From: an uncultured Neomegalonema sp.
GTDB taxonomy: Bacteria; Pseudomonadota; Alphaproteobacteria; Rhodobacterales; Rhodobacteraceae
Direction: 5' to 3'
DNA: 64,000 nucleotides
Assembly (NCBI GenBank): GCA_937928005.1
Contig: CALFVD010000028.1
Span: 1-64,000, forward strand
Positions 16,022 through 43,409 of the stretch are shown here, in pieces (position 1 is the stretch's first letter; every line of letters begins with the position of its first letter). Made by a program: the position numbers and the translations under genes. The notes beneath the pieces are model-generated. The model was not told the origin of the DNA. It searched no databases and saw only the letters and a program-made list of their open reading frames with translations.

Positions 16022-16144
16022 TTGCGGCCACTGTCACCTTATTACTTTGAATACTAATCGATATAATTCCATGTTCACCATCTTGCAGCCCCAGTAAGGC
16101 TGGCTGTTTGGGCAGTGATGGACAAGTTGTCGCACCCTTTCAGC
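16022..16144 (-). repeat. 123-bp dispersed repeat, copy 2 (inverted relative to 562-684)
   Basis: Reverse complement match to 562-684. Confidence 0.93.
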
Positions 16145-32410: not shown

Positions 32411-32968
32411 ATGATACGTTTGACAGGTTTAACAGCACTTGCAGCTATTTTTTTCGTAGGTTCCGTGGCAGTGGCCGATGAGGCGCTGGATGGATTTGAA
32501 ATTGCAGTTGATAAGTCAGGTGCCATCCGGGTGCCCGATGTTGATTATCGTGCAGACTGGACGATGCTCGGTACGTTCTCTGTTGCGGGTGAGGAAGGTG
32601 CAGATGGACTACATGTCGTATACGCTCAACCCGGCGCTGCCCAAGCGTATCGGAAAGACGGCGTGTTCCCCGATGGTACGGTTCTGATCAAAGAATTGCT
32701 GGGTACGAAAACAGAGGAACTGACGACGGGAACCGTATCCTATGCGGCGGAAACATCCGGTTGGTTTGTTATGGTTAAGAATGCCAATGATCGTTTTGAT
32801 GATAACCCGCTATGGGGCGACGGTTGGGGTTGGGCTTATTTTGACAAGGACGACAGGAATACGTCACCGACCGAAGATTATGTGGCGGAATGCAAGGCAT
32901 GCCATGTTCCAGCGCAAGCCACTGACTGGGTTTACGTCCGTGGTTATCCGGCTCTGAAATCGAAATGA
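32411..32968 (+). CDS. Cytochrome P460 family protein
   Basis: Signal peptide; C-terminal CKACH heme c motif; GWGWAYFDKDD...DYVAECKACHVPAQATDWVYVRGYPAL. Confidence 0.85.
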   Translation: MIRLTGLTALAAIFFVGSVAVADEALDGFEIAVDKSGAIRVPDVDYRADWTMLGTFSVAGEEGADGLHVVYAQPGAAQAYRKDGVFPDGTVLIKELLGTKTEELTTGTVSYAAETSGWFVMVKNANDRFDDNPLWGDGWGWAYFDKDDRNTSPTEDYVAECKACHVPAQATDWVYVRGYPALKSK

Positions 32969-33009: not shown

Positions 33010-33381
33010 TTGATCGGGATAAAACGTGTCTACCTGTCCCCTGAAGAAGGGGACGGGTATCGCGTGCTCGTAGACCGACTCTGGCCGCGCGGTGTTACGC
33101 GCGAGCAAGCGCATCTGGATGAATGGCTGAAGATCATCGCCCCTAGTCCAGATTTGCGGAAATGGTACGGTCATCGCGAAGAGCATTGGCTTGAATTTCA
33201 AGCGCGCTACCGAGACGAGCTTTTGGAAGAGCAACAGGCTACGGAAATCGACCGCCTTGCTGAAATTGCCGCTTCGGGTACTCTCACCCTGATTTATGCC
33301 GCGCGTAGCGAAACAGAAAACCATGCGGTGGTTTTGAGCGATGTACTCAGGGACCGATTATCCGATTCGGATTCCTGCTAA
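33010..33381 (+). CDS. DUF488/YeaO-like protein
   Basis: IKRVYLSPEEGDGYRVLVDRLWPRGVTREQAHLDEWLKIIAPS. Confidence 0.88.
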   Translation: MIGIKRVYLSPEEGDGYRVLVDRLWPRGVTREQAHLDEWLKIIAPSPDLRKWYGHREEHWLEFQARYRDELLEEQQATEIDRLAEIAASGTLTLIYAARSETENHAVVLSDVLRDRLSDSDSC

Positions 33382-33470
33382 AGCGAATTGCGATAATCCG
33401 GCCATATTCCACGCCAAGAACCGCGCGGAATATGGCGTTGGTGGTTCAAGATAACCGCAACGTGCTTTAG
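33379..33470. repeat. Family A nested palindrome, copy A3
   Basis: TAAAGCGAATTGCGATAATCCGGCCATATTCCACGCCAAGAACCGCGCGGAATATGG...GCAACGTGCTTTAG between convergent genes. Confidence 0.8.
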
Positions 33471-33808
33471 GTTCCATTCCCCGGCGCGGGGCTAAAGAAG
33501 CGTTCCAGCTTTCCGGCAACGCCATCTAACGCTTCGGCCTCGGCATCTGGCGCGCTCTGGGCGGTAATATTGGGCCATAGAGCCGCGTATTTGCCGTTCA
33601 GGGCTAACCATTCCGGCGTGGCCTCTGGGTCAGTATCGGCAAAGATGGCTTCTGCAGGACATTCCGGCACGCAGACACCGCAATCGATGCATTCATCTGG
33701 ATGGATGACGAGCATGTTCTCGCCTTCATAGAAGCAATCGACCGGGCAGACCTCCACACAATCGGTATATTTGCATCGGATACAATTATCGGTCACGACG
33801 AATGTCAT
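33467..33808 (-). CDS. fdxA: 7Fe-type ferredoxin
   Basis: [55 protein letters not shown]. Confidence 0.95.
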
Positions 33809-33825
33809 CTGTGACAACCTCATTA

Positions 33826-33848
33826 AACATGTATATGAAATGTATGTT
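33826..33848. promoter_or_regulatory. NsrR/Rrf2-like palindrome AACATGTATATGAAATGTATGTT (site 1)
   Basis: 11-1-11 inverted repeat, 17 bp upstream of fdxA ATG; 21/23 identical to site 2. Confidence 0.6.
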
Positions 33849-33991
33849 AAGAAGGATTGGATAGCTGTTGTCAATCCGCGTTCTGGATACAAGCCTGTGA
33901 TGATGAGCCTGAACTGCGTGAAGGAACTATATATGATGCATCTCAGATGCGATGATGCCTGGCATGGTATGCAGAGTTATGGGGTTCTCGC

Positions 33992-35161
33992 GTGTTACTG
34001 ACCTATGGATATCGTCCATTCTTTCTTTGCGCGGGCCTCTGGGCGATTCTTGCTATGGGTATTTGGATACCGATGCTCAGTGGTATAGTCGAGCTTCCGA
34101 CGGCTTTTGACCCGGTGTCATGGCATGCCCATGAATTCCTGTTTGGCTATCTAGGGGCTGTTTTAGGCGGTTTTCTGCTGACGGCCCTGCCAAACTGGAC
34201 CGGGCGTCCGCCGGTTGCAGGCTGGCGGTTGGGGGTGCTTGTCGTGTTTTGGCTGCTTGGCCGCCTTGCCGTGGCGACATCCCTATACTGGTCTGCGGGG
34301 ATCACAGCGGCGGCGGATCTCGTATTCTTTGTTATGCTTGCAGTGCTGGCGATGAGGGAGATTGTTGCGGGGCGAAATTGGCGCAATTTAGTCGTCATTA
34401 TCATCCTGACTATCCTGATCGCCGCGAATGCGCTGTTCCATTGGGAAGCCGCGCAGGGCAGTTTTGTGGCGCAGGGCTATGGGTTTCGCCTTGGGCTAGC
34501 TGCGGGTATTATGATGATCGCCATTATTGGCGGGCGCATTATTCCTGCTTTCACCCGAAACTGGCTTGTGAAACGGGGGGCGCATTCGCTGCCTGTCCAG
34601 ATGAATGTTTTTGACGGCTTTGCGCTGGTGGCGTTGCTGGTCGGGCTTTTTGCATGGGTGGTTATTCCAGAGAGGGCCGTCACTGGCGGGGTGCTGATTG
34701 GGGCCGGGGCGATTCATGCCGTGCGACTGGCCCGGTGGAAGGGAAGTAAGACCCTGAGCGAGCCGTTGGTCTGGGTGCTTCATGCGGGGTATGGATTTGT
34801 ACCGCTTGGCGCGGTTTTGTTGGGCGTCGGGTTGTTGGCCCCGGATACAATTCCCGTTGCCGCTGCGCAGCATTTGTGGATGGCTGGGGCGATTGGTCTT
34901 ATGACACTTGCGGTGATGACCCGCGCGACCCTTGGCCATGCTGGGGCAGAGTTGAGGGCGGGGACGGGTACGGCCATCTTGTATGGTGCCCTTGGTTTTT
35001 CGGTGATTGCGCGGGTGCTGGCCGGAGTGATGCCAGAGCTTGCCGATGCCTTGCACGCTGTTGCCGGGGTTTTTTGGATTGTGGCGTTTGGCGGTTTTGT
35101 CTTGATCTATGGGCCGTTCTTGCTAGGGCGGGTTGATGATCCGCCTGCTAAGGCATCATAA
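33992..35161 (+). CDS. nnrS: NnrS family protein
   Basis: GYRPFFLCAGLWAILAMGIW...WHAHEFLFGYLGAVLGGFLLTALPNWTGR. Confidence 0.92.
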   Translation: MLLTYGYRPFFLCAGLWAILAMGIWIPMLSGIVELPTAFDPVSWHAHEFLFGYLGAVLGGFLLTALPNWTGRPPVAGWRLGVLVVFWLLGRLAVATSLYWSAGITAAADLVFFVMLAVLAMREIVAGRNWRNLVVIIILTILIAANALFHWEAAQGSFVAQGYGFRLGLAAGIMMIAIIGGRIIPAFTRNWLVKRGAHSLPVQMNVFDGFALVALLVGLFAWVVIPERAVTGGVLIGAGAIHAVRLARWKGSKTLSEPLVWVLHAGYGFVPLGAVLLGVGLLAPDTIPVAAAQHLWMAGAIGLMTLAVMTRATLGHAGAELRAGTGTAILYGALGFSVIARVLAGVMPELADALHAVAGVFWIVAFGGFVLIYGPFLLGRVDDPPAKAS

Positions 35162-35203
35162 CTGGTATTCTGTCAGTGGCAGTGGGTTGCACGGGCATAA
35201 TTA

Positions 35204-35226
35204 ATCATGTAAATGAAATGTATGTT
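35204..35226. promoter_or_regulatory. NsrR/Rrf2-like palindrome ATCATGTAAATGAAATGTATGTT (site 2)
   Basis: 21/23 match to site 1; 43 bp after nnrS stop. Confidence 0.55.
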
Positions 35227-35236
35227 TGAAGGTCCA

Positions 35237-35347
35237 ATGCCCCTGACGCGCAAATGGGTTTTGCATTGGGGTTTCATGCAGTTGGCAACCAATGGATTCG
35301 GCTTGCTTTTTATTGAAACGGGGATGGTGCAATGGATGCGCCTGTGA
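35237..35347 (+). CDS. Candidate 36-aa small ORF
   Basis: MPLTRKWVLHWGFMQLATNGFGLLFIETGMVQWMRL*; GAAGG just upstream; below ORF-track size cutoff. Confidence 0.3.
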   Translation: MPLTRKWVLHWGFMQLATNGFGLLFIETGMVQWMRL

Positions 35348-35511
35348 ATTTGGCCTCATTGGTAAAGCTGGCTGGAATAAAGGCTTGCGCCGCCGTCTTG
35401 AGAACAGACGAGGCCACCCTGTCGAATACCATGCGCGCTTTTTGCAGATGGATTCGCGAGCATCCGATAATTAAACTCAGTTTTCGTGAAAGCCATCAGT
35501 GGAAGCTGTGA
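35332..35511 (+). CDS. Candidate 59-aa small ORF
   Basis: MDAPVNLASLVKLAGIKACAAVLRTDEATLSNTMRAFCRWIREHPIIKLSFRESHQWKL*; overlaps the 36-aa ORF. Confidence 0.35.
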   Translation: MDAPVNLASLVKLAGIKACAAVLRTDEATLSNTMRAFCRWIREHPIIKLSFRESHQWKL

Positions 35512-35543: not shown

Positions 35544-37187
35544 GTGATTATGGGGCACCTGACGCAAGGGGAACGCGAGCTGGCGCTATTGACCGGCGCT
35601 TTGCTTTTGGCTCTCGGCATGTTGATGATGGTTATGGCGTGGGGTGATCCGTTATCGGTTCACGGGGCTATGTTCGGCTTCTCTGGGGCCGCTGTTATGG
35701 CCGTGACGCTGAGAGGGATGTTTGCCCCAGCGCCAGACGAAAACCGATTTGCATCCTACTATGACGCCCCCAGCAAGGCGGGAATCGTAATTGCGATGAT
35801 CTGGGGCGTTTTTGCCATGTTCATCGGCGATTGGGTGGCTTGGCTGCTGGTTTTCCCTGAAATGACATTCGATGCAGGCTGGGCGAGTTTTGGGCGGCTG
35901 CGGCCCGTTCACACAACGGGCGTTATCTTCGGCTTTGGCGGCAATGCGCTGATCGCGACTTCCTTCCATGTTGTCCAGCGGACGTGTCGGACGCGGTTGC
36001 CGGATCAGTTCAGCCCTTGGTTCGTGCTGCTCGGATACAACCTCTTTTGCCTGATCGCGGTCAGCGGTTATATGCTTGGCGTCACCCAATCCAAGGAATA
36101 TGCGGAGCCGGAATGGTACGCCGATATATGGCTGGTCATTGTCTGGGTTGCCTATTTCCTATTGTACATGCGCACGTTGGCCCGTCGCAACGAACCTCAT
36201 ATCTATGTGGCGAATTGGTACTTCCTCGCCTTTATTCTGGTGGTGGCCATCCTGCATATCGTCAATGGGCTGGCGGTTCCGGTTTCGGCCTTTAGCGCGA
36301 AAAGCTATTCGGCGTTTTCGGGGGTTCAGGATGCGATGACCCAATGGTGGTACGGGCATAATGCCGTTGCATTCTTCCTGACCGCCGGGTTCTTGGGCAT
36401 GATGTATTACTACCTGCCGATGCAGGCGGGCCGCCCGATCTATTCCTATCGCACATCCATCGTTAGCTTCTGGGGCATCACGTTCTTTTATATGTGGGCG
36501 GGGTCACACCATCTGCATTACACCGCGCTGCCGTTTTGGGTGCAGACCCTTGGGATGAGCTTTTCGATCATGCTGCTGATCCCCTCTTGGGCATCGGCGG
36601 CGAATGCCCTGCTGACCCTGAATGGCGCATGGGACAAGGTGCGGACCGATGCGACTTTGCGCTTTATGGCTTTGGCGGCAATTTTCTACGGGCTATCCAC
36701 GTTTGAAGGCTCGTTCATGGCAATTCGCCCCGTCAATGCGCTGTCCCATTACACGGATTGGACGGTTGGGCATGTCCATGCCGGGGCGCTTGGCTGGGTG
36801 GCGCTGATCGTCTTTGGAGCCTTTTATGCGGCAACGCCAAAGCTGTGGAAATGCGAGCGTATGTACTCGCCGGGCTTGATCGAAGTCCATTTCTGGCTCG
36901 CCTTGTCCGGGACGCTTATCTATGTCTTTGCGATGTGGAATTCGGGCATCATACAAGGGCTGATGTGGCGGACTTATAACGACGGCGGAACGCTGGCTTA
37001 TTCCTTTATGGATTCCGTCAATGCGATGTACCCTTATTACATCGCGCGTGCCTTTGGCGGCTTGTTGTTCCTGTTGGGTGCGGTTGTCGGATTGTATAAT
37101 ATCGTGATGACGATCCGTACCGCTGCTGACACCTTGAGCGAGGCCGAAGACCGGCCACTTGGTCCAATCCTTGAGCCAGCGGAGTAA
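35544..37187 (+). CDS. ccoN: cbb3-type cytochrome c oxidase subunit I (GTG start)
   Basis: Multi-TM heme-copper oxidase; [52 protein letters not shown]. Confidence 0.97.
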
Positions 37188-37192
37188 CGGGC

Positions 37193-37942
37193 ATGTTCGG
37201 CGCACATTACAAACTTGAACGCAACGCTATCGGGCTGGTCCTTATGATTATCGGCGTTGCCTCGATTGGCGGCCTTGTCGAGATTGCCCCCCTTTTCACC
37301 ATTGACGAGACGGTTGAGGAAGCGCCCGATATGCGCGTCTATACCCCGCTCGAACTAGCCGGGCGCAATATCTATATCCGCGAGGGGTGCTATGCTTGCC
37401 ATTCGCAGATGATCCGTACCCTGCGTGATGAGGTTGAGCGATACGGCCCCTATTCGCTCGCAGTCGAATCCCAATACGATCACCCGATGCTGTGGGGATC
37501 AAAACGCACCGGCCCGGATTTGGCGCGTCTTGGCAACAAGTATTCCGATGACTGGCATGTTGCGCATCTGCTCGATCCACGATCCGTCGTGCCGGGATCA
37601 GTGATGCCCGCCTATGCATGGCTCGCCCGTACCGAGCTTGATACCGACGATATGTCGGCGCATCTGTCGGCGCAAAGAGCGGTTGGCGTGCCCTATGACG
37701 AGGACATGATTGCCGAGGCGGCGGCGGATGCAATAGGCCAAGCGCGCCCCGATAGCGACGGTGCAGAGGGTGTGATCGACCGCTATGGGGATGACACGGC
37801 CATTAGGAACTTTGACGGCGCGCCCGGAAAACCAACGGAGATGGACGCGCTGGTCGCCTATCTACAAATCCTTGGGCGGCTGACCGATGTGGCCCATGCG
37901 GGGGCATCCGAAAACGTGGAAAGCGCGGAAAGCGGGAGTTGA
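37193..37942 (+). CDS. ccoO: cbb3 oxidase subunit II, mono-heme cytochrome c
   Basis: [54 protein letters not shown]. Confidence 0.97.
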
Positions 37943-37946
37943 AGAC

Positions 37947-38117
37947 ATGGAATTCACACATGAAACGCTGGTGGCTTTCTCGAAAACCTTTGGCCTGTTC
38001 TATCTGATTGCTTTGTCGATTGGCGTGCTGATCTATGCCTACCGCCCAAAGAATAAGGAGCGTTTCGAGCGCGCCGCGACCAGTATATTCGGCAACGAGG
38101 ATCGACCATGTCGGTAG
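37947..38117 (+). CDS. ccoQ: cbb3 oxidase subunit CcoQ
   Basis: MEFTHETLVAFSKTFGLFYLIALSIGVLIYAYRPKNKERFERAATSIF. Confidence 0.9.
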   Translation: MEFTHETLVAFSKTFGLFYLIALSIGVLIYAYRPKNKERFERAATSIFGNEDRPCR

Positions 38118-38989
38118 GCGAACGTGACCCCCATTCGGGCTATATGACAACGGGCCATGAGTGGAATGGCATCAAGGAACTGAACACGCCAGTCCCCAGA
38201 CCTGTCTGGCTGTTCCTGATCGCTTCGTTTTTGATCTCAGTTATGATGTGGGTTTTGTTACCTGCATGGCCGCTTGGCTCGACCTTTACGCGGGGTGCGC
38301 TGGGGTATAATGAGCGTGCCGCATTGGACGAAAGGGTGGCAGTCGCGGCAAGTGCGCGCGCGAGTTGGATGACGCCGCTGGAGACGATGAGCTATGAGGA
38401 GGCCCGCGCGGATAGCGATTTGCTGATGCGGGTGAAGCAAACGGGGCAAACCCTGTTCGGTGATAACTGCGCCGCCTGTCATGGGGTCGAGGCAAAGGGT
38501 GGGCCGGGTTATCCAAATCTGGTTGATACGGCTTGGCTGTGGGGGGGGGATATCGACGCGATATCTGAAACCCTACGGGTTGGGATCAATACTGAACATC
38601 CCGATACTCAATATGCGCAGATGCCCTCCCTTGGTCGCGACGGCGCGCTCGACAAGAAATCGATCCTGCGCGTCATCTCCTATGTGCAATCATTGTCGAA
38701 CCCGGCGATAGCGGAGGAAGCCCCGGCACGGGTGGCCGAGGGTAACGCGCTTTTCGCTGAAAACTGTAGTTCCTGCCATGGCGAGGATGCGAAGGGTATC
38801 CAAGAACTTGGTGCGCCCAATCTGGCCGATAAAGCATGGATATATGGTGGCGATAGGGCATCATTGTACCAGACAATCCAATATGGCCGGAACGGCCATA
38901 TGCCAGCATGGGAAGGCCGATTGAGTGAGGCAGAACGGCGGCTTCTTGCGATCTATCTTCTCGATCTTGCCGAGAGTCAGCCACAATGA
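38108..38989 (+). CDS. ccoP: cbb3 oxidase subunit III, di-heme cytochrome c
   Basis: EWNGIKELNTPVPRPWL-like N-terminus; two heme motifs CAACHG and CSSCHG. Confidence 0.96.
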   Translation: MSVGERDPHSGYMTTGHEWNGIKELNTPVPRPVWLFLIASFLISVMMWVLLPAWPLGSTFTRGALGYNERAALDERVAVAASARASWMTPLETMSYEEARADSDLLMRVKQTGQTLFGDNCAACHGVEAKGGPGYPNLVDTAWLWGGDIDAISETLRVGINTEHPDTQYAQMPSLGRDGALDKKSILRVISYVQSLSNPAIAEEAPARVAEGNALFAENCSSCHGEDAKGIQELGAPNLADKAWIYGGDRASLYQTIQYGRNGHMPAWEGRLSEAERRLLAIYLLDLAESQPQ

Positions 38990-39165
38990 AGAGAACGGCG
39001 CGCTTTTATATTGGCCTAGGGGTCATCGGCGCGCTTGCGGTTGTGGCGTTGGCCAATGTGCATCTGGTCTATGTCGCGGTGACGACGCAGCCCGACTGCG
39101 TCGCCCATCAGAAAACGGCGGGGACGGCGGCGGGCGTCTACCGTGCTGCAAAATCGGCCTGCTGA
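38986..39165 (+). CDS. 59-aa small membrane protein ORF missed by the ORF track
   Basis: MKRTARFYIGLGVIGALAVVALANVHLVYVAVTTQPDCVAHQKTAGTAAGVYRAAKSAC*; overlaps ccoP stop (ATGA). Confidence 0.65.
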   Translation: MKRTARFYIGLGVIGALAVVALANVHLVYVAVTTQPDCVAHQKTAGTAAGVYRAAKSAC

Positions 39166-39187
39166 GGCGGAACGAAGGAATACTGGA

Positions 39188-39982
39188 ATGGACACACTCC
39201 CCGATATCGTTCCCCGGTTGCCACGCGAGGAAAGCTGGCACCGGGATGTTCCGCGCACCGAGGCACTGGAATGGTTGCGGGCTGGATGGCGGGATTTCAA
39301 AACGGAGAGGACGAACAGCCTTCTCTATGGTGGTCTGGTCTTCGTGATATCGCTGATCGTTATCGGCGGTATGCTCTTCTTGGGGATGGATTACCTGTTG
39401 TTCCCCGCACTTTCGGCATTCATGGTGTTTGGTCCCGCGCTTGCGATTGGGCTGTATGAAAAAAGCCGCCGCCTTGCAGCGGGCGAGCCTGTGACGCTTT
39501 CCGATATGGTGTTCGTGCGGCCAAAATCGGGATATCAGGTGCTCTACGCGGGCGTGATGCTGTGTTTGCTCGTGGTGCTGTGGATGCGGGCCGCCGTCCT
39601 GCTTTACGCGCTGTTCTTCGGGATGGTGCCGTTTGGGGGGATGGGTAGCATCCTGACAACTTTGTTCACCACATCCGAGGGATGGGGCTTGTTGTTTGTC
39701 GGTAGCCTCGTTGGTGGCCTGTTCGCGGCCCTTTCTTTCAGCATCAGCGCCTTTTCAATCCCGATGATGCTGGACCGCGAGCTTGATGCCTTTACGGCGA
39801 TGGCGCGAAGCATGGCGATTGTCTCGAACAACCTACCGATTATGTTGAGCTGGGGGGCGATTGTGCTCAGCCTCTTTGTGTTCAGCGTGATAACGGGGTT
39901 ACTGGGCCTCGTCATCGCTTTTCCGGTTCTTGGCCATGCGACATGGCACGCCTATAAAACGATGTGCCCGCCCCCGAAATGA
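39188..39982 (+). CDS. DUF2189-like membrane protein
   Basis: RPKSGYQVLYAGVMLCLLVVLWMRAAVLLYALFF...DRELDAFTAMARSMAIVSNNLPIMLSWGAIV. Confidence 0.82.
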   Translation: MDTLPDIVPRLPREESWHRDVPRTEALEWLRAGWRDFKTERTNSLLYGGLVFVISLIVIGGMLFLGMDYLLFPALSAFMVFGPALAIGLYEKSRRLAAGEPVTLSDMVFVRPKSGYQVLYAGVMLCLLVVLWMRAAVLLYALFFGMVPFGGMGSILTTLFTTSEGWGLLFVGSLVGGLFAALSFSISAFSIPMMLDRELDAFTAMARSMAIVSNNLPIMLSWGAIVLSLFVFSVITGLLGLVIAFPVLGHATWHAYKTMCPPPK

Positions 39983-42189
39983 CCACGCCGCAGGATAGAG
40001 GGCTGCGCGAGAGTCGCGGCGATGGGGGAGGGTGCAGCGTCCTATCCGTCCCCGATATGCGTTGCTTTGGGTGTATCGGCAAGATTGAAGCGGGTTTGAC
40101 GGCCCTTGATGGGGTGCGTAGCGCGCGCGCCAATCTCGGTATCCGGCGCGTTACGGTGCATTGGGATGGTGATTGCGAGCCGCCCTTCATCGACACTCTC
40201 GATGGGCTTGGCTTCAAGGCGCATGAGCATCAGCCTGATCTGGCACAGCCTGATGAAACGCTGTCTCGGCTCATTCGTGCGCTGGCTGTTGCCGGGTTTG
40301 CCACCGGCAATATTATGATGCTGTCGATCTCTGTCTGGTCCGGCGCGGATGCCGGGACGCGCGAGATATTCCACTGGATTTCCGCCCTTATCGCCGTGCC
40401 GACATTGGCCTATTCGGGGCAGGTGTTCTTTAAGTCCGCGTGGCGCGCCTTGCGCCGTGGCACGACGAATATGGATGTGCCGATTTCGGTCGGCGTGCTC
40501 GTGACGTTTTTGATGAGCCTTAGCGATACCCTGCGTGGGGGCGATCAGGTTTATTTCGATGCCGGGGTCATGCTGTTATTTTTCCTATTGATCGGGCGGA
40601 CGCTCGACCATGCGATGCAGGAAAAGGCGCGTAATGCGGTGGCGGGGTTATCGCGGCTGATCCCCCCGAAAGCGATGATTGAGCACCCGGACGGAACGAG
40701 AGCACCGCTCGCCGTTGATAGGATCGACCCCGGAATGCGGGTTATTATCGCCGCTGGAGCGCGCATTCCGGTCGATGGGACCGTCGAGGAGGGTGCGTCC
40801 GAGATAGATCGATCCATTGTGTCAGGCGAAAGCCTACCTTGTGCTGTTGCGCCGGGGGATACGCTGCTTGCAGGAACGCTCAACCTGACCAGCCCGCTAA
40901 CCCTACGCGCGACCGCGCGTGCGGGGGAATCGTATCTTGCGGAAATAAGGCGTATGCTGGAGGAGGCAGAGGCCGGACGATCCCGGTATCGGCGTATTGC
41001 GGATCGGGCCGCAAGACTCTATTCGCCGGTCGTTCATCTTGCGGCATTACTGACATTCATCGGCTGGTTTACGATAACGGGTGAGGTTTATCACGCGCTG
41101 ACCATTGCTGTTGCCGTGCTTATCATCACCTGTCCCTGCGCGCTGGGGTTGGCGGTGCCGATGGTTCAGACGGTTGCGGCGCGGCGACTGCTGGAGGAGG
41201 GCGTTCTGGTCCGGGATGGTGCCGCGATGGAGCGGCTCGCCACGATTGACACTGTGGTCTTCGACAAGACCGGAACGTTGACATCGGGGCATCCGCATCT
41301 CGTCAATGGGCCAACCGTCTCTCAGGAGCATTTGGATCTTGCGGGTGCCATCGCCGCCTATTCTCGTCATCCCTATTCGACCGCGTTGACCGCAATCGCC
41401 GGAACACAATCGAAAATTACCTTCGACCATATCGAGGAAATCGCCGGATCAGGTGTGCTTGCACGATCCGGGGCCGTCACATATCGCCTTGGTAGGTCCG
41501 ATTGGGCGGCTTCGGTGGGGCATCCTGATGGGGAGAAATCCTCCACCGTTTTGTCCAAGGACGGCGAAACCCTCGCGGTTTTCGAGTTTGAGCATCTTTT
41601 GCAGGTTGGTGCAGATAAAGCCGTTGCTACTCTGCGTGAGGCAGGTTTGCGCATCGAGATGTTGTCGGGCGATGCGCGTTTGCCGGTTCAGCGCGTTGCC
41701 GCCCAACTCGGAATCGACCATTGGGTCGCCGGGGCGACGCCCGCCGCGAAGATCGAGCATCTGCGCGCGCTACGGGCCTCTGGTCATGGGGTGTTGATGG
41801 TCGGCGATGGCCTGAACGATGTGGCCGCCCTTGCGGCTGCGTCGGTTTCTATGGCTCCGGTAGAGGCGGCGGATATTGGCCGGGCGGCGGCGGATTTTGT
41901 TTTGGTGCGTGAGGACCTGAACAGCATTCCCCGTACCCTTCAAATTGCCCGCCGATCCGCGCATCTGGTCCGGCAGAATTTTGCAATGGCTGTGGGGTAT
42001 AACGCCCTTGCCATACCGTTTGCGGTTTTGGGATATGTCTCGCCACTGGTGGCCGCCTTGGCTATGTCTGGGTCTTCATTGCTTGTGACGATCAATGCCT
42101 TGCGGCTGAACGGGTCTGGCAGGATGATGCAGCGAAACGGGCGCAGCGACCGTGTGGTCCATCCCCCAGCGCAGGAGCGCACAGCATGA
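39964..42189 (+). CDS. ccoI: cbb3 assembly Cu P1B-type ATPase
   Basis: MRCFGCIGKIE; ITCPCALGLAVP; FDKTGTLTSGHP; MVGDGLNDVAAL. Start may be 39979. Confidence 0.93.
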   Translation: MPAPEMTTPQDRGLRESRGDGGGCSVLSVPDMRCFGCIGKIEAGLTALDGVRSARANLGIRRVTVHWDGDCEPPFIDTLDGLGFKAHEHQPDLAQPDETLSRLIRALAVAGFATGNIMMLSISVWSGADAGTREIFHWISALIAVPTLAYSGQVFFKSAWRALRRGTTNMDVPISVGVLVTFLMSLSDTLRGGDQVYFDAGVMLLFFLLIGRTLDHAMQEKARNAVAGLSRLIPPKAMIEHPDGTRAPLAVDRIDPGMRVIIAAGARIPVDGTVEEGASEIDRSIVSGESLPCAVAPGDTLLAGTLNLTSPLTLRATARAGESYLAEIRRMLEEAEAGRSRYRRIADRAARLYSPVVHLAALLTFIGWFTITGEVYHALTIAVAVLIITCPCALGLAVPMVQTVAARRLLEEGVLVRDGAAMERLATIDTVVFDKTGTLTSGHPHLVNGPTVSQEHLDLAGAIAAYSRHPYSTALTAIAGTQSKITFDHIEEIAGSGVLARSGAVTYRLGRSDWAASVGHPDGEKSSTVLSKDGETLAVFEFEHLLQVGADKAVATLREAGLRIEMLSGDARLPVQRVAAQLGIDHWVAGATPAAKIEHLRALRASGHGVLMVGDGLNDVAALAAASVSMAPVEAADIGRAAADFVLVREDLNSIPRTLQIARRSAHLVRQNFAMAVGYNALAIPFAVLGYVSPLVAALAMSGSSLLVTINALRLNGSGRMMQRNGRSDRVVHPPAQERTA

Positions 42190-43349: not shown

Positions 43350-43409
43350 CTATAGCGATTTGCGATAAACTTGGCGCTTGATGATTCAGGGTGATCGCAA
43401 TTCGCTTTA
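43350..43409. repeat. Family A palindrome, copy A4 (60 bp, lacks inner hairpin)
   Basis: CTATAGCGATTTGCGATAAACTTGGCGCTTGATGATTCAGGGTGATCGCAATTCGCTTTA. Confidence 0.7.

Follow-up and report, generated by a model that had tools for sequence, protein, structure and literature searches.

Two near-identical candidate NsrR-type operators in an fdxA–nnrS–cbb3 oxidase cluster of an uncultured Neomegalonema sp.

The window—the whole 64,000-nucleotide stretch of DNA analyzed here—carries a cluster in which genes for a cytochrome P460 and a DUF488 protein are followed by fdxA on the minus strand, nnrS, the cbb3 oxidase genes ccoN, ccoO, and ccoP (all three present), and genes for a DUF2189 protein and a copper ATPase. 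Two near-identical 23-mers lie within this cluster, and the features are as follows:

32411..32968, plus strand: cytochrome P460 (PF16694), whose homologue in the same-genus genome G003 sits behind an NsrR-type site
33010..33381, plus strand: DUF488 protein (PF04343/PF22752), present too in several nnrS/nsrR loci of relatives
33467..33808, minus strand: fdxA, 7Fe ferredoxin (NCBIfam FdxA_Protbact, above cut-off)
33826..33848, no strand assigned: site 1, AACATGTATATGAAATGTATGTT, candidate NsrR-type operator of fdxA, possibly nnrS
33992..35161, plus strand: nnrS, NO-response membrane protein (PF05940, E 4e-105)
35204..35226, no strand assigned: site 2, ATCATGTAAATGAAATGTATGTT, candidate NsrR-type operator of the cco cluster
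35553..37187 (alternative GTG start 35544), plus strand: ccoN, cbb3 oxidase subunit I of the nsrR/trHb-linked clade (TIGR00780 above cut-off; tree; linkage test)
37193..37942, plus strand: ccoO (FixO; PF02433)
38108..38989, plus strand: ccoP (FixP; PF14715 and cytochrome c domains)
39143..39982, plus strand: DUF2189 membrane protein (PF09955), adjoining ccoN also in G112, G006, and G176
39964..42189, plus strand: copper-transporting P-type ATPase, ccoI-like (E1-E2 ATPase and HMA domains)

Both 23-mers are intergenic and share 21 of their 23 positions, just as the initial annotation had described them, and their placement agrees as well: the ATG of fdxA (33808, minus strand) lies 17 bp downstream of the end of site 1 and nnrS lies 143 bp from it, while site 2 starts 42 bp past the nnrS stop codon and ends 326 bp ahead of the ccoN ATG at 35553. 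This puts one site in the fdxA/nnrS intergenic region and the other ahead of the cco cluster, upstream of NO-response genes, as NsrR operators are. The shared similarity runs slightly beyond the 23-mers (ATTAA-N-CATGTA-N-ATGAAATGTATGTT-NN-GAAGG). A 22-base query allowing up to 3 mismatches retrieved exactly these two sites from the window and none from shuffled sequence; no third copy was found at ≤3 mismatches in the whole 3.96-Mb metagenome-assembled genome (MAG), and a scan of 298 family genomes for the exact motif found it essentially absent and gave no useful further sites.

Measured against the 11-1-11 NsrR geometry first ascribed to the sites, the inverted symmetry is modest (8/11 pairs at site 1, 6/11 at site 2). 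The published core, ATGYAT-N5-ATRCAT, is matched with one mismatch by site 1 and two by site 2, and ∼9 chance matches are expected per 64 kb at ≤2 mismatches. Either site taken singly would be weak evidence for NsrR; what goes beyond chance is the pairing and placement of the sites, rather than the consensus fit of either. That the resemblance arose by chance, or through duplication of a short sequence with no part in regulation, would accord with the core fit of each single site, which does not rise above the level of chance matches in the window, but we find this barely credible given the absence of chance pairs in shuffles, the intergenic position of both sites, and an independent match to an operator in the same gene context in another genome (G138, discussed below). 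Each site can also be viewed as a direct repeat of ATGTAT with 11-bp spacing, and a non-Rrf2 regulator, for example an OmpR-type response regulator, might recognize ATGTAT-N5-ATGTAT; at site 1 the direct repeat (8/12) is as good as the palindrome (8/11), and both copies have the same orientation. Yet where related sites adjoin nsrR, as in G112, G006, L044, and other loci, they are palindromes, and casual inspection of the cluster revealed no regulator of the direct-repeat kind, so that we consider this reading highly unlikely.

The window cluster is an accessory cluster, since nnrS is missing from all 13 other genomes of the genus and a ccoN match occurs in just 3 of these 13. Its FdxA, too, is a separate protein, divergent from the housekeeping version found in the genus, because it shares 67 to 71% identity with genus copies that share 77 to 100% among themselves; the two genus fdxA loci that we read both adjoin carD, one of them with an S4-domain gene as well. 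Because nnrS is missing from the genus and the genus fdxA encodes a different protein in a different context, orthologous footprinting was not possible. That the window contig belongs to this genus is supported by a repeat around GCGAATTGCGATTATC, which is common to the window (including a copy beside fdxA), contig C200, and the same-genus G006 and rare elsewhere (2 copies in 818 kb of other nnrS-fetched loci).

An intergenic hairpin-like repeat, whose ends lie near AAGCGAATTGCGATTATCCTGAA, occurs in the window at 2163, 33383, 43355-43390, and 48787, on contig C200 of G000 (L197), and on contig C68 of G006 (L193); it is present in several copies in the genus, is rare in other Rhodobacteraceae loci, and looks like a REP/MITE element. 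An identical inverted pair of at least ∼58 bases, at ∼562-619 and ∼16087-16144 of the window, is part of a longer repeat. An Rfam search returned no matches, and a search for sigma-70-like promoters matched nothing informative.

The initial annotation had called for an nsrR-like gene and for further sites in the genome, and each was found once. The 87%-complete MAG holds three Rrf2 genes: (i) IscR, adjoining cysteine desulfurase; (ii) a protein without the three cluster cysteines; and (iii) an NsrR-like protein on contig C52, unlinked to the window cluster, with Asp8 and a C-X6-C-X5-C arrangement. The best structural match of the C52 protein is Streptomyces coelicolor NsrR (5n07, 2e-20, compared to 1.5e-8 for IscR); we name it NsrR-like because its score against the NCBIfam NsrR equivalog (104.6 bits) is below the cut-off of 182, and it passes the Rrf2 superfamily model. 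Its recognition helix reads HLAK, and the site near it, at the 3′ end of its own gene, belongs to a different operator type (GGTAT, see below) from that of the window sites. As for further sites, one additional good site of the window type lies in the genome, ahead of wrbA, and a regulon-wide set was not found there. The wrbA site, AAGGTGCATTTAATATGCATCTT, is a canonical NsrR-type site (G000 contig C200, 6100-6122; L105, 1501-1523) ∼70 bp upstream of the gene; at the corresponding place in G003, beside smc, there are an NsrR-type site and a cytochrome P460 gene.

Named genomes supplied 80 nnrS loci for comparison. The majority have an NsrR-like gene near nnrS, and in these loci a 23-bp 11-1-11 palindrome, typically AATAGGTATTGTAAATACCTATT, lies ∼40 bp (in some, ∼70 bp) upstream of that gene. 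A first position weight matrix, built from hand-collected operators of other loci with the window sites left out, ranked the window sites first and second across the 64 kb, with scores of 19.4 and 10.7 against 5.2 for the next best. A stricter matrix, derived from 33 palindromes picked automatically upstream of nsrR and almost entirely of the GGTAT dialect, missed them (P of 0.40 for site 1 and 1.0 for site 2 over the window; 0.013 and 0.16 in intergenic DNA alone). Both outcomes can be reconciled if the window sites belong to another dialect, and because of this miss we undertook an analysis of two operator dialects, in which each NsrR gene was represented by its best upstream site, scored against two consensus forms drawn up in this work. 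Genes with an HL[AST]K helix had GGTAT-type sites (GGTAT..ATACC) in 56 of 58 cases, the other 2 being ties; all five genes with an HLMK-like helix, a small group in which two sites are weak, had ATG-type sites (ATGYAT..ATRCAT); and four other helices were split between GGTAT (three) and ATG (one). The operator dialect of NsrR thus appears to follow the recognition helix. Both window sites score as ATG type: 20/22 versus 15 for GGTAT at site 1 and 18/22 versus 13 at site 2.

The closest counterpart to site 1 among the loci fetched for gene content is found in G138, where an HLMK-type nsrR is divergent from a trHb-fdxA (72%)-nnrS operon (trHb, truncated hemoglobin) and the operator AACTAACATTTCATATGCATATT lies between them, 18 bp upstream of nsrR. 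Aligned with site 1 in reverse complement, this operator agrees at 19/23 positions, and it is the sole match to the ATG-type pattern in the 4.37-Mb G138 genome; the next-best match among these loci is the nsrR operator of L044 (17/23). The same type of site stands beside nsrR and orthologous targets in G138 and beside nsrR in L044. Matches of 18 to 19/23 in L118, L120, and L125 were left out of the evidence, since these loci had been brought in by pattern searches. In G003, an NsrR-type operator precedes the cytochrome P460 gene, which is shared with the window cluster.

Which NsrR would read the window sites can be narrowed down in the same way. No NsrR with an HLMK-type helix, matching the dialect of the sites, was found in the 87%-complete assembly. 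Because the sites are ATG type, the C52 protein is HLAK, and HLMK-type NsrR genes stand beside cco genes in relatives—next to DUF2189-ccoNOP in the same-genus G006 and within an nsrR-trHb-ccoN arrangement in G188—the simplest regulator would be an HLMK-type NsrR whose gene is probably missing from the assembly. The C52 protein remains the second candidate because, in G003 and G112, its orthologues have nearby sites that fall between the two dialects. Binding of the window sites by this protein, with tolerance of a broad operator range, would fit with its being the sole NsrR in the assembly and with the location of its G112 orthologue, which lies in a cluster of cco/heme-copper oxidase genes that holds three sites, one of them ahead of trHb-DUF2189-ccoNOP; we nevertheless regard it as rather unlikely, given the strong association of HL[AST]K helices with GGTAT-type operators and the GGTAT-type site near the C52 gene. 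In G112, nsrR is divergent from a COX2-COX1-SCO1-formate/nitrite transporter operon, with two NsrR-type sites between (L194, 5055-9018); this operon possibly encodes an unusual NO reductase or oxidase.

The CcoN tree places the window protein in a clade (clade 1) fully separated (100/100) from housekeeping CcoN, and several genomes with a CcoN of this clade also carry a housekeeping CcoN. Taking one locus per genus, we found nsrR, an NsrR-type operator, or a truncated hemoglobin gene within 1.5 kb of ccoN in 10 of 18 clade 1 loci compared to 0 of 11 housekeeping loci (Fisher P 0.002, a test that, like those that follow, treats phylogenetically nonindependent loci as independent). Taken separately, and each against 0/11 in housekeeping loci, nsrR was found in 6/18 (0.04), truncated hemoglobin in 8/18 (0.01), and a strong operator in 7/18 (0.02). 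Beyond the loci of the clade test, five further nnrS-fetched contigs have nsrR directly before ccoN. In ten loci (L035, L041, L042, L059, L072, L223, L225, L226, L227, and L229; L042 is from Maritimibacter sp. 55A14 and L059 from Gemmobacter megaterium) nsrR lies directly ahead of ccoN in the same direction with an operator before nsrR. G188, which has the nsrR-trHb-ccoN order, is among the closest CcoN relatives; in G112 one operator precedes nsrR and another precedes trHb-DUF2189-ccoNOP. No recognizable site was found near the G138 ccoN, which belongs to the same clade as that of the window. Clade 1 also differs from housekeeping CcoN by two Pro-to-Ser changes, one at window residue 317, in WAG[S/P]HHLHY just ahead of the conserved His-His pair, and one at 386, in TFEG[S/P]; any influence of these changes on NO chemistry would be speculative.

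These linkages bear on whether site 2 is functional. Site 1 alone could serve fdxA and nnrS, with site 2 an accidental or degenerate copy and the cco genes under some other control, since site 2 is the weaker in every scan and lies >300 bp from ccoN with just unconserved small open reading frames between. We consider this unlikely, because site 2 shares 21/23 positions with site 1, many relatives have nsrR or NsrR-type operators adjoining a ccoN of the window clade, and no FNR-type box was found upstream of the window ccoN. The small frames themselves (35237-35347 and 35332-35511) overlap and occupy the stretch between site 2 and ccoN; neither had a homologue in the loci fetched up to that search, and 35332-35511 had no Pfam or NCBIfam matches.

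Taken together, we put at roughly two in three the probability that a dimeric Rrf2 repressor of NsrR type uses both 23-mers as operators. In the absence of NO, an Fe-S NsrR would occupy site 1, across the fdxA start region and the shared fdxA/nnrS intergenic stretch, as well as site 2, in the cco leader, repressing both; NO would destroy the Fe-S cluster and release NsrR, and NnrS, the dedicated FdxA, and a second type of cbb3 oxidase would then be made. cbb3 oxidases are strongly inhibited by NO, and some reduce it; under nitrosative stress the second-type enzyme would keep respiration going, remove NO by reduction, or both. Comparison with relatives suggests an NO-defense gene pair and a separate high-affinity oxidase under one NO alarm. 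The initial annotation had proposed one NsrR over fdxA, nnrS, and possibly the cbb3 genes; a single NO-sensing repressor of all three is plausible because of the G138 operator between nsrR and trHb-fdxA-nnrS, the nsrR-ccoN order in ten loci, and the nsrR-trHb-ccoN order in G188, whereas the sole NsrR of the assembly is unlinked and, being HLAK, carries the helix found with the other dialect. More tentatively, Rhodobacteraceae may possess a separate NO-stress cbb3 clade, repressed by NsrR, linked to truncated hemoglobin, NnrS, and a dedicated FdxA, and marked by the CcoN Pro-to-Ser changes, with NsrR operators in two dialects set by a recognition-helix residue. If so, these bacteria would make a terminal oxidase on purpose when NO appears, which would account for the two cbb3 operons retained by some Rhodobacteraceae, and the helix-operator correspondence would offer a testable rule for assigning each NsrR to its sites, even where a genome encodes two.

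The window sites resemble the NsrR operators described by Rodionov et al. in 2005 (consensus gATGyAT-N5-ATrCATc; PMC1274295) in their approximate 11-1-11 layout and ATG core and in their position upstream of nnrS and NO genes. They depart from that consensus at a G outside the core, replaced by C, and at a C in the right half, replaced by T, as well as in their targets, fdxA and the cbb3 genes. The C52 protein shares Asp8 and three cysteines with S. coelicolor NsrR, whose half-site sequence differs from that of the window sites. The S. coelicolor NsrR/hmpA1 operator is 23 bp, as in the window, and the targets there (hmpA1, hmpA2, and nsrR) differ from ours (PMC9338935; 5n07/7b0c). In beta- and gammaproteobacteria, nnrS is a known NsrR target, and the same survey reported no nsrR orthologue in alphaproteobacteria except Rhodobacter capsulatus E1F1 (PMC1274295). 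In the same family as the window, Dinoroseobacter shibae has a cbb3 oxidase whose known regulation is by oxygen through FnrL (PMC5398030), a likeness of enzyme type and family; no FNR box was found before the window ccoN. The literature searched, which leaves out most subscription papers, yielded no report of a cbb3 oxidase controlled by NsrR; the reference lists of PMC6472365 and PMC8780969 include work on the inhibition of cbb3 enzymes by NO and on their NO reductase activity. The Vibrio fischeri alternative oxidase, as cited in those two papers (Dunn 2010), is NO induced and under NsrR: a terminal oxidase under this repressor, as proposed here, yet an alternative oxidase rather than a heme-copper cbb3 enzyme. 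NsrR control of nnrS, and of a terminal oxidase in V. fischeri, is already known.
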